Origin: a virus
Length of the DNA: 23,765 nucleotides
Reading direction: 5' to 3' (one strand)
IMG/VR virus record: IMGVR_UViG_3300030103_000107
Location: 1 to 23,765 of that record
The notes under the pieces are model-generated. The model was given only the letters and a program-made list of their open reading frames with translations, had not been told where the DNA came from and searched no databases. Positions 15,691 through 23,765 of this stretch are shown piece by piece (the first letter of the stretch is position 1; the number at the start of each line of letters is the position of its first letter). Both the position numbers and the translations under genes were made by a program.

Positions 15691-16614
15691 TTAGGCTCCT
15701 TGATTTCCAAACCAACTTCTCCAGTCAGAAACACCAAAAGAATATCTTTCACGTGCTTTGAATCGTAAGTTGCCAGTATCGAAATCTGGTTCCATTTTAG
15801 TTTGTAATGGAGTTCTATTAAACATTTTAGTACCATTTGGTACGTCTGTTTTAATGAACCATGCATTTACATCTGTAAATCTTCTGTTCACATAGAATCC
15901 ATCAGGCAATACACCTAAATGTCTTATAGCATTAATGTCATTGTTTGCAAAGTGATTTGCAGTTCCTAATATACCTGCAGTAGTGCCAGGTGTATTTAGA
16001 AGTACATCTGCTGTAAACATTAGATCTGTTGGTACGTGTAATGAAACACCTGAAGCACCTATAAGGATGCCACGATCATCAGTAGTTTTTTGTATCTGAA
16101 TGATTGCTGCTTCAATAGTACCTTCAGCTATAGCTGCTGCAGTAGTAATGTTAGTTACTGTTCCAGAGCCTACAACTGGGTGTGCTGCACTAAACATTGG
16201 TACACCATCACCTTGATTTGTTGCGAAGCCATTGTTGTACAAGTCAGCAGCTTTTTGCTGTTTTGTACTTCCCATAGCTCTTGCTAATCCTTTTGCTCTT
16301 AGTTTTGCAAAAGTATCATATAAATTATCTTCCATAGCTTCTTCAGTTACTGCGAATGCTAATGCTACAGTTTCGTTAGTATACCTTGAAGTATAACTTT
16401 CTGATGCATCATCATAAACTACAGCAGCACCCTCACCTTTAACAGGTGCAGCACCAAAGCCTGTGAAGAGTACTTCTTCTTCAAAAGCTCTATCTGAGTT
16501 TTCTATTTCGTATAATGGTTTGTGTTCTTCATCTACGCTGCCATATTCTATTCCAAAAACTGCATTTAGTCCAGGAAGTAGCTCTTTGGCAATACTTGCT
16601 CTATTAATAGCCAT
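15691..16614 (-). CDS. Major capsid protein, Mu gpT-like
   Basis: 307 aa, close to the 305 aa of Mu gpT. It opens MAINRASIAKELLPGLNAVF and has YEIENSDRAFEEEVLFTGF, then SRYTNETVALAFAVTEEAME, then a GDGVPMFSAAHPVVGSGT block, which matches the 'GDG.P.FS..HP' signature I associate with Mu-like head subunits (HK97 fold). Later beta parts (LHVPTDLMFTADVLLNTPGT, DPDFDTGNLRFKARERYSFG-like end) fit a shell protein. No protease or cleavage-prone N-terminal delta region is evident. It lies downstream of the scaffold and decoration-like genes, and a hairpin follows it. Confidence 0.85.
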   Translation of the reverse strand: MAINRASIAKELLPGLNAVFGIEYGSVDEEHKPLYEIENSDRAFEEEVLFTGFGAAPVKGEGAAVVYDDASESYTSRYTNETVALAFAVTEEAMEDNLYDTFAKLRAKGLARAMGSTKQQKAADLYNNGFATNQGDGVPMFSAAHPVVGSGTVTNITTAAAIAEGTIEAAIIQIQKTTDDRGILIGASGVSLHVPTDLMFTADVLLNTPGTTAGILGTANHFANNDINAIRHLGVLPDGFYVNRRFTDVNAWFIKTDVPNGTKMFNRTPLQTKMEPDFDTGNLRFKARERYSFGVSDWRSWFGNQGA

Positions 16615-18873: not shown

Positions 18874-19302
18874 TTAACTACTATATTTAGTTAAATTAAA
18901 AGTAGGATCTAAAAACTTTGGATCTTGTACTTTCATTATAACTTGATCATCATACAATAAAATCATCTTAACATTTTTATATTGTATCTTTTGACCAGCA
19001 TGTTTAGCATAACAAATATAATCTCCTAATTGACACCAAGGTCCTTTAGGAAATTTTTCATTATCATTATAAGCAAGATCACCTATTTTAATAACTTGAC
19101 CTATAGTTGTTAAATACGACATATCGTCTTTAGTTGAATTTGGTAGTAATATACCACCCTTAGTTTTCTCTTTTATTGAGACAGGTCTTACGAGTACATG
19201 AAAACCTGGAAGTTCAGGTAAGACATCTGGAGTACTTTCATCTTCTTCTTCTGTAATCCACATATCGTTCTTTATAGATTTACCTAAATGTGCCTGTTGC
19301 AT
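18874..19302 (-). CDS. GroES-like co-chaperonin
   Basis: 142 aa with a Cpn10-type core at about residues 28-128: LPGFHVLVRPVSIKEKTKGG (start), then ILLPNSTKDDMSY, IGQVIKIGD, GDYICYAKHAGQKI and YDDQVIMKVQ. The GGILL piece (residues 49-53) corresponds to the GroES mobile loop GGIVL that docks on GroEL. Extra N-terminal (acidic, 1-27) and C-terminal tails are longer than in bacterial GroES (97 aa). Phage co-chaperonins such as T4 gp31 adapt host GroEL to fold the capsid protein, and this gene lies next to the head genes. The start is in TAATG with the 64-aa gene stop. A promoter-like site follows its stop. Confidence 0.8.
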   Translation of the reverse strand: MQQAHLGKSIKNDMWITEEEDESTPDVLPELPGFHVLVRPVSIKEKTKGGILLPNSTKDDMSYLTTIGQVIKIGDLAYNDNEKFPKGPWCQLGDYICYAKHAGQKIQYKNVKMILLYDDQVIMKVQDPKFLDPTFNLTKYSS

Positions 19303-19496
19303 TAGTCATCCTCTTCTTCGTATAGTCTTTTCTTAACTACTTCAGTTAATTTATTACGAGACCATTCAATTCCTTGAACAAGTCCTACGAGTTGCCTATA
19401 GTGAGCAAAAGAATCTGCTTGCCCACTAGAGACATTTAATCTTAGTTTATTGAGTTCGTCATTATATTCTTTGACTACCTCATCCCATACATCCAT
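19302..19496 (-). CDS. Small helical protein, 64 aa
   Basis: Begins MDVWDEVVKEYNDELNKLRL and contains FAHYRQLVGLVQGIEWSRN, ending KKRLYEEEDD. It looks mostly helical and acidic at the end. The 'F.HYR.LVG...G..W....' block is one I recall from short head-module proteins of marine phages. I see no good Shine-Dalgarno, and it starts 9 nt after the PqqA-like stop, so coupling is possible. Function unknown; head assembly role suggested by position before the GroES-like gene. Confidence 0.6.
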   Translation of the reverse strand: MDVWDEVVKEYNDELNKLRLNVSSGQADSFAHYRQLVGLVQGIEWSRNKLTEVVKKRLYEEEDD

Positions 19497-19505
19497 ATTT
19501 AGAAA

Positions 19506-19580
19506 TTAAATTTCTGCACATGCATAGCAATTAATCTCTAGTCCTACAGATACTTCTTTTACGACTGGTGATTTCCACAT
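19506..19580 (-). CDS. pqqA: PqqA-like peptide, precursor of the cofactor PQQ
   Basis: A 24-aa gene that opens with MWKSPVVKEVSVG and ends LEINCYACAEI. Glu15 and Tyr19 form the Glu-x-x-x-Tyr pair from which PQQ is made: PqqE joins them, with PqqD as carrier, and later enzymes finish the cofactor. The same numbering (15 and 19) applies to the Klebsiella peptide, and the M-W-x-x-P opening and the G-[LM]-E-[IV] step before Glu-Tyr match the family as I know it. GGGAG lies 8 nt before the ATG. It follows the 68-aa gene stop by 1 nt. No pqqB, C, D or E is in the window, so host enzymes would be needed. Cys18 and Cys21 around Tyr19 make a CxxC, the one unusual feature; some alphaproteobacterial forms have a similar YACA ending, as I recall. 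Confidence 0.75.
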   Translation of the reverse strand: MWKSPVVKEVSVGLEINCYACAEI

Positions 19581-19581
19581 A

Positions 19582-19788
19582 TTATCTTCTCCCTTTAGTT
19601 GGTTCTGGATACTTCCAAGCACTTTGATCATACTCATTTAAAGCTCCTCTTAATTGCATTTTACCTGCAACAGGATAACTATCTTTAGTATAATCTCCAT
19701 ACATGCCACCATCTCCATTTGGAACATGGGTAGGGTATCCATTAGTTACACCCTTTTTTACAGGGTAAGCTTTATTCCCTATTGACAT
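19582..19788 (-). CDS. Hypothetical 68-aa protein
   Basis: Starts MSIGNKAYPVKKGVTNGYPT and contains GGMYGDYTKDSYPVAGKMQ, ending KYPEPTKGRR. I chose ATG 19788 because AAAGGAG lies 9 nt upstream; an ATG three codons earlier (19797) would touch that site directly. It overlaps the portal end by 17 nt. Gly/Tyr/Pro-rich and polar, likely partly disordered. Unknown function; it precedes the PqqA-like peptide. Confidence 0.6.
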   Translation of the reverse strand: MSIGNKAYPVKKGVTNGYPTHVPNGDGGMYGDYTKDSYPVAGKMQLRGALNEYDQSAWKYPEPTKGRR

Positions 19789-22327
19789 TCTGATCATCTC
19801 CTTTCATTTCTTCTTTTAATAGATCCATCATAACATCAACAAGTTTAAAACTTCTTTGTCTGTCATCCAGATCATCCATACTAGCAACTTTAGTTAAAGC
19901 AGCTATACGAATTTTTTCTAAGTCTATAGCATTCTTTTCTTCTGCCATAGTTGTCTTAGCTAATAAGTCTAAAGACTTCATTGTTTCTTTTGAAGCTCTA
20001 TCAAGATCTGCTTTTTCTTTTTTCAATACAGCATCTTGACCAGATTTACCTGCAGCAACCATTAACTTAGCTTCTTCTAATTCTAATTTCTGTGCATCTA
20101 ATGCAGAGTCTGCAGAATATTTAGCAGCTTCTTGTTGTAGTTTTTGTTTTTCTAATTCTACTTTAGCTTGTTCAAGAGCTACCATTTGTTGTTCAGGTGA
20201 TTGAGCTTGTCCCATTTGATTTGCATTTAATACTTGTTGTGCTGCAGTAGCCATAGCCATTTCAGCAACTTGAGGATTTTGTTGTTGATCTGGTGGTAGT
20301 TGTTCCATTGCAGCTCTTGCCATACCATTCATTTGTTCTTGATATTTTAATACAGAATGCTCTTGTATATTTGCTTCTAGTATTGGTTTTAATCTAGCCA
20401 TTATAGGATTAGCACCATTCTGAGGATCTTGTAAGTACATCATCTTCACTTGTATATGTGAGTCATGGTTCTGTCCTGGAAATGCTGCAATAGGTATACC
20501 CTTTGTTGCAGCCATTATATCAGATACAGGATCTAATTTTTGTGGTTCCTTTTTAGGTGGAAGTATTTCTTCTATGTTAGGCAAATTAGCAGCATTTAAT
20601 ATTGTTCTATTCAATGCTTCAAGATTAAACATACCAGGAGGTGATTGCTGTGCCATTTGTAATGCCATCTGCGAAATCATCATCCTATGTGCGTTTGATG
20701 GAATGTTAGGATCTGATACTGGTATCACATCTACTCTACCATCAAAGTCTTGTTTAAGAACATTCTTATCAGCAAAAGGTACTTCATATGGATACTCAGA
20801 AGGTAGATAATCATAGTTTATCTGGGCAAGTATTTTAAATTCATCTCGTTGAGATTTGTGTAATCTCTTGTGAATAGCAGAGAAGAACTTACTTGATGCT
20901 TCTAGTAATGCCATTGTTGTACCCACAGGTCCATAAGATGCTGCATCAGAAACTATTTGTTCTGTACTATCAGCAAACTTTTGACCTGCTTGAGTAATGA
21001 AGCCAAGCATATTGAACAGAGTTGAGGAAGGCTCTTTATATGGGAGAGACACTATAGCCTTATTGAGATCTTGTCCTGTAGCTTCAACTTCTTTAAACTC
21101 ACCTGGTGATATAGGATCGTTGTCTCCAACAATTCTTACACCCTTTGCTTTGAATCCTCCTGGTAAGTTTGCGAATTGACCTGCATCCACTAAACTTCTC
21201 ATGGCTGCAGTAGCAGTCATAGTTAAGTTTCCTAAAAAGTGCATGAGACCAAATCCATAGAAACTAAAGCCTGGTACGAACCTGTAGTGAACAAAGTGAG
21301 ACACTTTTTCTTGGTTCTTATCATCCTTCTTATAGTTTCTACGAATACTTAAAATTTGTTGTGACTTCTCTTCTACTGTAACAATATAAGGAAGAGCATA
21401 GTCTTCTTCTATTTCTAAATAACAATGTTGTTCTAGTAATGTATATTGTGGATCATTTGTTCCTGTAGGAGACAAACCAATAATTGTATCCATCTTTTCT
21501 GAAAAAGAAGTAGGTTGTGGATTAGTTGCTTCTGGTAATTCTACATCTCTATATATTCCTGTTCTCATATCTTTTGCAAGATCAACAGGACTTCTATATA
21601 TTACATGTGTGTATCTATCTGCTTTACGTAGATTAGATGCATAGTAAGAAACATAGAATTGATCAATAGGAACAAACTCAGATACTGGTCTTTTTAAATT
21701 AGCATCATAATAAACTTTTTTAAATGCTGATCCTATTAATGGTAAATGAAATAACATTCTTTCCATCTCATCAAAGTATTCAGGCATCTGATCTGTTGTT
21801 TGATAATTCATAAACTCTTGAACACGATTAGCTTGATCTTCTCTTTCAGGAGTAGACTTACCTATGATCTGAGCTTTAACTGGACCTGATGGTGGAAATA
21901 ATTCTTGTATTGCTTTTGATTGAAACTTAACAGCAGATTCTATTAACATTGGATGTACTGCTGTACATGCACCTTCAAATGGTTCTGAAGATTCTTGTAT
22001 CTTTAATCCTAGTAGATCAAAACCTTTTTCAAACATTGCTTCCCATTCAGCACGAGAATCTTTATCTGATGTATAGTTATCTACTACATCTGCTGCAATG
22101 ATTTCTTTATCTTCATCTTCTAATGTATCTGTAAGATCTCCATACCATTCTTGTATAGATTCTTCAGCTTCCATTTCTACAACACCTGTAAAGTCTACAG
22201 TAACACCACCATCATCTTCCATTTCAAATGTTGGTGCACCTTCCATCATCTCTTCAGGTGTAGGCATTTTTACTACATTAGTTATTTCTTCACTAATTCT
22301 TTCAAATGGATTTTTTTCTGTAGCCAT
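19772..22327 (-). CDS. Portal protein, P22-type
   Basis: 851 aa, longer than P22 portal (725 aa). The wing and stem regions show ESSEPFEGACTAVHPMLIES, then GSAFKKVYYDANLKRPVSEF and PIDQFYVSYYASNLRKADRY, motifs I associate with P22-like portals of marine podoviruses. A loop-helix region with DAASYGPVGTTMALLEASSK follows. The C-terminal 200 residues are Gln/Lys/Glu-rich helices (ALEQAKVELEKQKLQQEAA), fitting the long coiled 'barrel' that helps eject DNA. The dodecameric portal sits at one capsid vertex, receives DNA from the terminase and anchors the adaptors. Start is in TAATG with the stop of the 90-aa gene. Confidence 0.85.
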   Translation of the reverse strand: MATEKNPFERISEEITNVVKMPTPEEMMEGAPTFEMEDDGGVTVDFTGVVEMEAEESIQEWYGDLTDTLEDEDKEIIAADVVDNYTSDKDSRAEWEAMFEKGFDLLGLKIQESSEPFEGACTAVHPMLIESAVKFQSKAIQELFPPSGPVKAQIIGKSTPEREDQANRVQEFMNYQTTDQMPEYFDEMERMLFHLPLIGSAFKKVYYDANLKRPVSEFVPIDQFYVSYYASNLRKADRYTHVIYRSPVDLAKDMRTGIYRDVELPEATNPQPTSFSEKMDTIIGLSPTGTNDPQYTLLEQHCYLEIEEDYALPYIVTVEEKSQQILSIRRNYKKDDKNQEKVSHFVHYRFVPGFSFYGFGLMHFLGNLTMTATAAMRSLVDAGQFANLPGGFKAKGVRIVGDNDPISPGEFKEVEATGQDLNKAIVSLPYKEPSSTLFNMLGFITQAGQKFADSTEQIVSDAASYGPVGTTMALLEASSKFFSAIHKRLHKSQRDEFKILAQINYDYLPSEYPYEVPFADKNVLKQDFDGRVDVIPVSDPNIPSNAHRMMISQMALQMAQQSPPGMFNLEALNRTILNAANLPNIEEILPPKKEPQKLDPVSDIMAATKGIPIAAFPGQNHDSHIQVKMMYLQDPQNGANPIMARLKPILEANIQEHSVLKYQEQMNGMARAAMEQLPPDQQQNPQVAEMAMATAAQQVLNANQMGQAQSPEQQMVALEQAKVELEKQKLQQEAAKYSADSALDAQKLELEEAKLMVAAGKSGQDAVLKKEKADLDRASKETMKSLDLLAKTTMAEEKNAIDLEKIRIAALTKVASMDDLDDRQRSFKLVDVMMDLLKEEMKGDDQNVNRE

Positions 22328-22708: not shown

Positions 22709-22737
22709 AGTATAACATTAAACTCTCCAGTATGCAA
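22709..22737 (-). promoter_or_regulatory. Sigma70-like promoter at the terminase end, before the portal cluster
   Basis: In the minus-strand direction, TTGCAT (22732-22737), a 17-bp spacer and TATACT (22709-22714) lie across the terminase stop. It shares TTGCA and spacing with the site at 18842-18870. The expected transcription start, near 22702, coincides with the ATG of the 50-aa frame, so the first usable start would be the 90-aa gene. Confidence 0.45.
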
Positions 22738-23765
22738 GTTTTTTTTCTTTTGGTTCGTCATTCCAATCTGGATCTTCTGGATGTGTTAAATGCCATGACT
22801 CTTTTACATAGTGTATAGCCATTGTCATTGCATCAACTTGGTCATCATGTGCAGCATTTGGAAACCTTAACATTTCTTCTAATAAATCTTCTGACCACTT
22901 TTTATTTTTAGGAAACCATACTTTACCAGATTCCATCATAGGAGTAGATGCATATACTCTGGATACTTTATCTCTATCAGGTAAATATTCTAACACAGGT
23001 ATACCAGCTCTACGCATATCTTGTATTAATGATTGTCCTGATGCTTTCTTTTCTACCATACATACATCAGGTCTATGTTCTTGATATAACATTTGTGTCA
23101 TACGTCTAAGTTCTGGATATTCAAATCTTCCTTTAATGTTTCCTAACAAAATAAGATTACCTTGAAAAGATTCTATACCATCTTCAGTTTCATCATACAT
23201 AGAAAAAATTCCCCATGTCTGAATAACACTATAATCTGCTGTAGTTTTTGTAGAGAATGCTGTATCATATGTTTGTATTATAAAATCACATGGAGGAGGT
23301 TCGTCATATTCCCACCACTTCAACCATTTCTTCTTTATAAGTCCACCTTCATCTGGTGTAGGATCTTGCATATACAATGCATTCCAGTATCGTGCACCAT
23401 TTGAAGCTTTGATTTCATGTTCATCTACTTTTAATACTTCATCTGGTTTCCATTCAGGAAAATAACTAGAACCTACTGGTAGTTGTAACAATTCTGCAGC
23501 TTCTTCATCTAACCACGCAGGAATACGTACAACATCCCAAGGAATAACTTCATAATCTCCTACATTCTCTTCTTGTTTTAATAACCATCCACAAAGATCA
23601 TCATAATGATACCTTGTATTTATTATTAATATGGAACCATTAGGCATAATACGTGTTCTTAGTCCTGCTGGATACCATTCCTTAACGTATCTTCTACCTG
23701 CTTCAGAGTATGAATCTTCTTCTGACATGACATCATCAAGGATTGCAATGTGTGCACCTCTTCCT
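22718..23765 (-). CDS. Terminase large subunit, N-terminus cut by window edge
   Basis: 348 visible residues. The first, GRGAHIAILDDVMSEED, carry the Walker B motif (hydrophobic strand then Asp-Asp) of the packaging ATPase. The C-terminal nuclease domain follows: IIQTYDTAFSTKTTADYS supplies the first catalytic Asp, VCMVEKKASGQSLIQDMRRA a Glu, and FPNAAHDDQVDAMTMAIHYV the last acidic cluster, an RNase H-like order seen in terminases. Walker A and the start lie beyond the right edge; an ATG at 23728 is internal. It pumps DNA into the procapsid through the portal and cuts the concatemer. The next gene cluster begins near its stop with a promoter-like site. Confidence 0.9.
   Translation of the reverse strand, partial: GRGAHIAILDDVMSEEDSYSEAGRRYVKEWYPAGLRTRIMPNGSILIINTRYHYDDLCGWLLKQEENVGDYEVIPWDVVRIPAWLDEEAAELLQLPVGSSYFPEWKPDEVLKVDEHEIKASNGARYWNALYMQDPTPDEGGLIKKKWLKWWEYDEPPPCDFIIQTYDTAFSTKTTADYSVIQTWGIFSMYDETEDGIESFQGNLILLGNIKGRFEYPELRRMTQMLYQEHRPDVCMVEKKASGQSLIQDMRRAGIPVLEYLPDRDKVSRVYASTPMMESGKVWFPKNKKWSEDLLEEMLRFPNAAHDDQVDAMTMAIHYVKESWHLTHPEDPDWNDEPKEKKLAYWRV

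Follow-up and report, generated by a model that had tools for sequence, protein, structure and literature searches.

A lone pqqA-like gene in the head module of a probable alphaproteobacterial phage

Why would a phage carry, between its head genes, a frame of 24 codons resembling the precursor peptide of pyrroloquinoline quinone (PQQ), with none of the enzymes that build this cofactor in sight? The question is raised by a marine bacterial virus, record IMGVR_UViG_3300030103_000107, whose positions 1 to 23,765 (the window, that is, the whole stretch of 23,765 nucleotides (nt) that was analyzed) contain a pqqA-like gene. The product of this gene is probably a genuine PqqA, the ribosomally made peptide from which PQQ is derived; the gene would have been acquired from an alphaproteobacterial host and would act as an orphan substrate gene. 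The gene and its ribosome-binding site are as follows:

19506..19580, minus strand: pqqA-like gene, 24 amino acids (aa), MWKSPVVKEVSVGLEINCYACAEI, with Glu15 and Tyr19; TIGR02107 match and conserved locus
19589..19594, minus strand: Shine–Dalgarno-like AGGGAG of pqqA, read from the sequence, inside the 3' end of a 71-aa gene

Identity of the peptide and its bacterial counterparts

The peptide scores 27.3 bits against the NCBI equivalog model TIGR02107 (cut-off 20, E = 2.4e-6), and a degenerate PqqA DNA pattern finds one match in the window and none in 100 shuffles; thus, the gene is not a chance match. With bacterial PqqA of the alphaproteobacterial type (TIGR02107/PF08042) it shares the length, the M-W-x-x-P opening, the V-G-L-E-I-N-C-Y-A-C-A-E core, and Glu15 and Tyr19, and 22-23 of its 24 residues equal those of host copies of the MarineAlpha9 type. 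Unlike bacterial PqqA, it is phage-borne, lacks accompanying pqqBCDE, and lies in a head operon. Neither a PHROGs search with the 24-aa peptide nor a tblastn search with it against the phages collection gave a match.

A first-pass annotation of this DNA had described a 24-codon gene at the same coordinates, with Glu15, Tyr19, the M-W-x-x-P opening, and GGGAG 8 nt before the ATG. All of these features are present in the sequence: the frame runs on the minus strand from ATG (19580-19578) to TAA (19508-19506), and AGGGAG stands 8 nt before the start, which itself begins 1 nt past the stop of the upstream 71-aa gene. Purine-rich sites also precede other phage pqqA genes. An alternative in-frame ATG at 19637 would give a product of 43 aa; the 24-codon start is favored because relatives and host operon copies begin with the same MW.

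A genome scan with a degenerate pattern for the PqqA core (V-G-x-E, then Y-x-C-A-E), confined to copies with Cys21, had marine and soil alphaproteobacteria among the matches listed. In four genomes of the MarineAlpha9 lineage or near it (G001, G002, G003, and G006), PqqA is MWKSPVVREVAVGLEINCYACAEI and is followed by pqqB, pqqC, and pqqE; in G003 a pqqD frame precedes pqqE. Equivalog models confirm PqqB, C, D, and E in G003 and PqqE in all four. The pqq enzymes expected of likely hosts would be present, since pqqB, C, D, and E adjoin pqqA in the presumed hosts, bacteria whose PqqA is nearly identical to that of the window. The CxxC around Tyr19, on which the first-pass annotation had based its caution, is discarded as evidence against PqqA, since operonic host PqqA has it and it is therefore ordinary in the MarineAlpha9-type lineage. 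PQQ methanol/ethanol-type alcohol dehydrogenases exceed the cut-off in 7 of 10 genomes with such PqqA.

Three genomes (G001, G003, and G005; loci L338, L340, and L343) contain a lone extra pqqA flanked by a LysR-like regulator gene and a transporter-like gene, both named from their sequence. The lone copy of G001 and G005, MWKSPVVKEVAVGLEINCYACAEI, is the very peptide of phages L033, L034, and L136 and differs from that of the window by one residue. At the DNA level, phage copies match the lone host copies at best at 68-69 of 75 bases and the operon copies at 59-63. Of the two host genes, the lone one is hence the nearer to phage pqqA, and transfer could have gone either way.

Conservation, genomic place, and spread of the lone gene

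Eighty related IMG/VR loci were fetched by portal similarity, and 37 of them have the peptide at the same position. Within the window's clade, the window counted, pqqA occurs in 38 of the 41 members with a readable portal-to-gp64 interval, and in a neighboring clade (68-73% portal identity) in 0 of 24 readable members; L043-L048 and others without a PqqA match were not counted as absences where the contig ends too early. The portal tree needs 4 changes and is consistent with one gain and three losses. In L023 and the neighboring clade a 64-aa gene directly follows the 71-aa gene, and pqqA therefore looks like a small cassette placed between the two.

Portal relatives and relatives from the pattern sweep together provided 50 pqqA genes with 32 distinct DNA sequences, for which mean pS is 0.533 and mean pN 0.104 (ratio 0.195). 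Phage pqqA is under purifying selection. Unchanged in this set are M1, W2, P5, E9, V12-G13-L14-E15-I16-N17-C18-Y19, and C21-A22-E23. The conservation of Glu15 and Tyr19 in related phages, which the first-pass annotation had made a test of its claim, is accordingly complete in the 32 distinct sequences, and this ExxxY pair is also constant in the host copies compared. That a gene of only 75 bp is a chance passenger, or an artefact of assembly or binning with host DNA, is hardly tenable: one phage-labelled record did prove to be a bacterial contig with pqqABCDE (see below), but the gene holds one phage position across the 37 loci, with synonymous divergence, purifying selection, and phage context, and is also found in cultured phage genomes, so that its conservation already contradicts such an explanation. 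It is a stable phage gene and no host contamination.

The gene is part of a closely packed, co-directional series that begins with terminase and portal, continues with the 71-aa gene, pqqA, the 64-aa gene, GroES, and a protein in scaffold position, and leads through two further small genes to the major capsid protein. Its placement among structural genes, as first annotated, agrees with the portal, GroES-like, and major capsid families matched around it:

22718..23728, minus strand: terminase large subunit, 3' part; PF17289, phrog_38
19772..22327, minus strand: portal (head-to-tail connector); phrog_1216, 122 bits
19582..19797, minus strand: 71-aa gene with no assigned function or family, located between the portal gene and pqqA
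19302..19496, minus strand: 64-aa gene with no assigned function and no convincing family, downstream of pqqA with a gap of 9 nt
18874..19302, minus strand: GroES-like co-chaperonin; PF00166 43.8 bits, phrog_3188 61.7 bits
17801..18787, minus strand: 328-aa protein in scaffold position; phrog_28737, function unknown
15691..16614, minus strand: major capsid protein; PF25209, phrog_371

Promoter-like sites do not exceed the frequency found in shuffles, and pqqA is not separated from its neighbors by any terminator-like site on the minus strand; therefore, pqqA is probably co-read with the head genes from the head operon transcript. This proximity to GroES and capsid genes, together with the lack of a modifying enzyme found in the phage, could suggest a structural role in the head module or the precursor of another radical-SAM product. 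Both are very unlikely, given that no other maturase was found nearby, that bacteria encode a near-identical PqqA beside pqqB, that the gene lies elsewhere in other phages, and that it is missing from some near relatives whose head genes are the same.

The window portal is 38-44% identical to the portals of Pelagibacter phage HTVC023P, phage 023Pt_psg01, and Roseobacter phage CRP-901. HTVC023P (39%) has the same order of portal, small genes, and GroES; unlike in the window, no PqqA was found between its portal and GroES. The portal-to-GroES interval looks like a cargo site, because in L040, L043, L044, L047, and L048 it contains, after the portal, insertions of differing small genes (e.g., MANTTFNGPVRAENGF...).

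A search of 223 viral loci, 1.98 Mb in total, detected neither PqqB nor PqqC nor PqqE. Twenty longer viral records have one PqqA each, none has PqqE over the cut-off, and one has a PQQ dehydrogenase confirmed by profile; in the 59.6-kb relative G024, PqqB, C, and E were not found either. The examined phage DNA is thus without pqqB, C, and E, and the presumed hosts would have them. One 72-kb viral record (L351 in G030, IMGVR_UViG_3300025120_009955, 30000-46000) combines pqqA with genes for the alpha subunit of formate dehydrogenase (885 bits) and for a methanol/ethanol dehydrogenase of the PQQ type (608 bits). It may represent a methylophage equipped for C1 oxidation, or else bacterial DNA that was misclassified.

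The degenerate pattern finds intact PqqA in at least 120 IMG/VR contigs, and all matches listed are peptides of 23-24 aa with a proper stop, though the pattern required no stop codon. Several types occur: the methylotroph-like MWTTPAATEMRFGFEVTMYVMNK, the HIMB59-like MWSKPIITEISVGLEINSYACAEK, a further type, and that of the window. The HIMB59-like type resembles the bacterial PqqA MAWTKPMISEISVGLEINSYACAEK of HIMB59 type. In phages that share the window's head module at 35-40% portal identity, the HIMB59-like gene lies between portal and GroES, the methylotroph-like gene mostly just after the capsid gene, and one gene upstream of terminase; these type-dependent positions suggest that pqqA was acquired repeatedly and separately, matching the host. 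L208 (NZMJ01000006.1), binned as Maricaulis, is a phage contig with portal, GroES, and HIMB59-like pqqA.

A tblastn search with the methylotroph-type peptide matched nine phage records of Methylophilaceae/Methylophilales (P19250A, MEP301, Venkman, MEP401, MEP402, and four Melnitz) and one spring metagenome phage. The pqqA copies inspected, from six of the genomes, are intact and have ribosome-binding sites. The annotation at the matches is either absent or "hypothetical protein", never PqqA; for Melnitz-1 and the spring phage, the frame annotated there lies on the opposite strand. What is said of methylophages is confined to the records named here, to which MEP431-434 do not belong. The cultured methylotroph phages with pqqA comprise at least three unrelated phage types; the OM43/LD28 phages P19250A, MEP301, Venkman, MEP402, and Melnitz-1 (L345-L349), which differ in type, all have an intact, unlabelled pqqA. 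With a Pseudomonas-type PqqA, tblastn matched no Pseudomonas phage, and its only other hits are records labelled Acinetobacter phage. The one opened, "Acinetobacter phage MD-2021a" (L352, CAKLQF020000010.1), was rejected as a phage example, being a bacterial contig with ppk and pqqABCDE.

Weighing the role of an orphan PqqA

Several points weigh against a genuine, host-derived PqqA that acts as an orphan substrate. The profile check proposed in the first-pass annotation gave a significant PqqA hit with TIGR02107, but the peptide falls marginally under the threshold of the 19-position Pfam model PF08042 (20.2 vs 21.1 bits). The close relatives L023, L035, and L040 are without pqqA, so the gene is dispensable. 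The window is a fragment of a phage genome, and further pqq genes could lie outside it. The gene sits in a structural, probably late module, which is late for a metabolic boost. Moreover, the host is probably a MarineAlpha9-type alphaproteobacterium as judged solely by the likeness of its PqqA.

Each PQQ made uses up one PqqA, whereas the enzymes act as catalysts and are reused (overview in PMC12124388). As the peptide is spent and the enzymes persist, a supply of the peptide alone should sustain PQQ synthesis after host transcription falls. In the mechanism proposed here, the peptide would be made from the head-module transcript during infection and bound by host PqqD, host PqqE would cross-link its Glu15 and Tyr19, host peptidases would trim the cross-linked product, and host PqqB and PqqC would complete PQQ. 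If the phage stops host transcription, the peptide could be the first component to run short, and carrying it alone would be the cheapest remedy; PQQ would then be kept up and the PQQ-dependent alcohol dehydrogenases of the host could stay working as an energy supply. The earlier suggestion of a limiting peptide and of a rise in PQQ during infection would fit this scheme, and genomes with HIMB59-like PqqA that contain two to five copies of it fit the idea of a limiting peptide supply.

Two other effects on the host deserve consideration. In principle, a substrate encoded without its enzymes could titrate PqqD/PqqE, acting as a decoy that occupies them, lowers PQQ, and shuts part of host metabolism. 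This seems unlikely, since loss of Glu15 or Tyr19 would be expected in a decoy, whereas both of these residues, which are the ones cross-linked, are invariant together with the core around them and agree with functional copies in hosts, and the peptide types correspond to those of PQQ-dependent hosts. Extra PQQ could also fill an outer-membrane PQQ receptor used by rival phages and exclude superinfection, as PqqU serves as receptor for E. coli phages (PMC12124388); we give this very little credence, because the hosts concerned synthesize their own PQQ and the receptor role described there is limited to E. coli phages.

Rather than a decoy or a superinfection barrier, the provision of substrate seems the better account, and with somewhat less confidence it may be regarded as a recurrent strategy, in which unrelated phages each took the host-matching peptide alone because it is the sole part of the pathway consumed per cofactor. 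Cyanophage psbA, which encodes the D1 protein, is a known instance of a phage supplying a fast-consumed component of a host energy system. The likeness is one of analogy, the consumed part being a protein subunit there and a cofactor precursor peptide here.

The first-pass annotation could not tell whether a phage PqqA had been described; it had been published in 2020 (PMC7678222) and 2026 (PMC13188868), and phage PqqA as a class is therefore already known. Coutinho et al. 2020 (PMC7678222) suggested that the PqqA of the Lake Baikal methylophage VP_266 increases PQQ in support of methanol oxidation. Both VP_266 and the window phage bear PqqA; VP_266 infects methylotrophs and has a methanol dehydrogenase gene as well, whereas the window phage, whose host is probably an alphaproteobacterium, showed no PQQ enzyme. 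For reservoir sediment viruses, pqqA/pqqD/pqqE are listed as viral phosphate-solubilization genes (PMC13188868); these are virus-borne pqq genes too, but the parts of that report consulted contain no orphan pattern or peptide analysis. A full-text search of open-access papers on cultured OM43 phages found no discussion of PqqA. The host lineage, the orphan pattern, and the breadth of occurrence are the points added here, and they were not found in the open-access literature searched.

The spread of pqqA seems to be underestimated, since routine annotation misses a gene of this small size, and none of the cultured methylotroph-phage genomes found has it labelled as PqqA. A lone pqqA thus appears widespread, and mostly overlooked, in viruses of PQQ-using marine and freshwater bacteria. 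If the recurrent strategy holds, PQQ supply would be a general bottleneck in the infection of methylotrophs and marine alphaproteobacteria, and phages of common marine and freshwater bacteria would sustain alcohol oxidation by supplying only the precursor peptide that is consumed.
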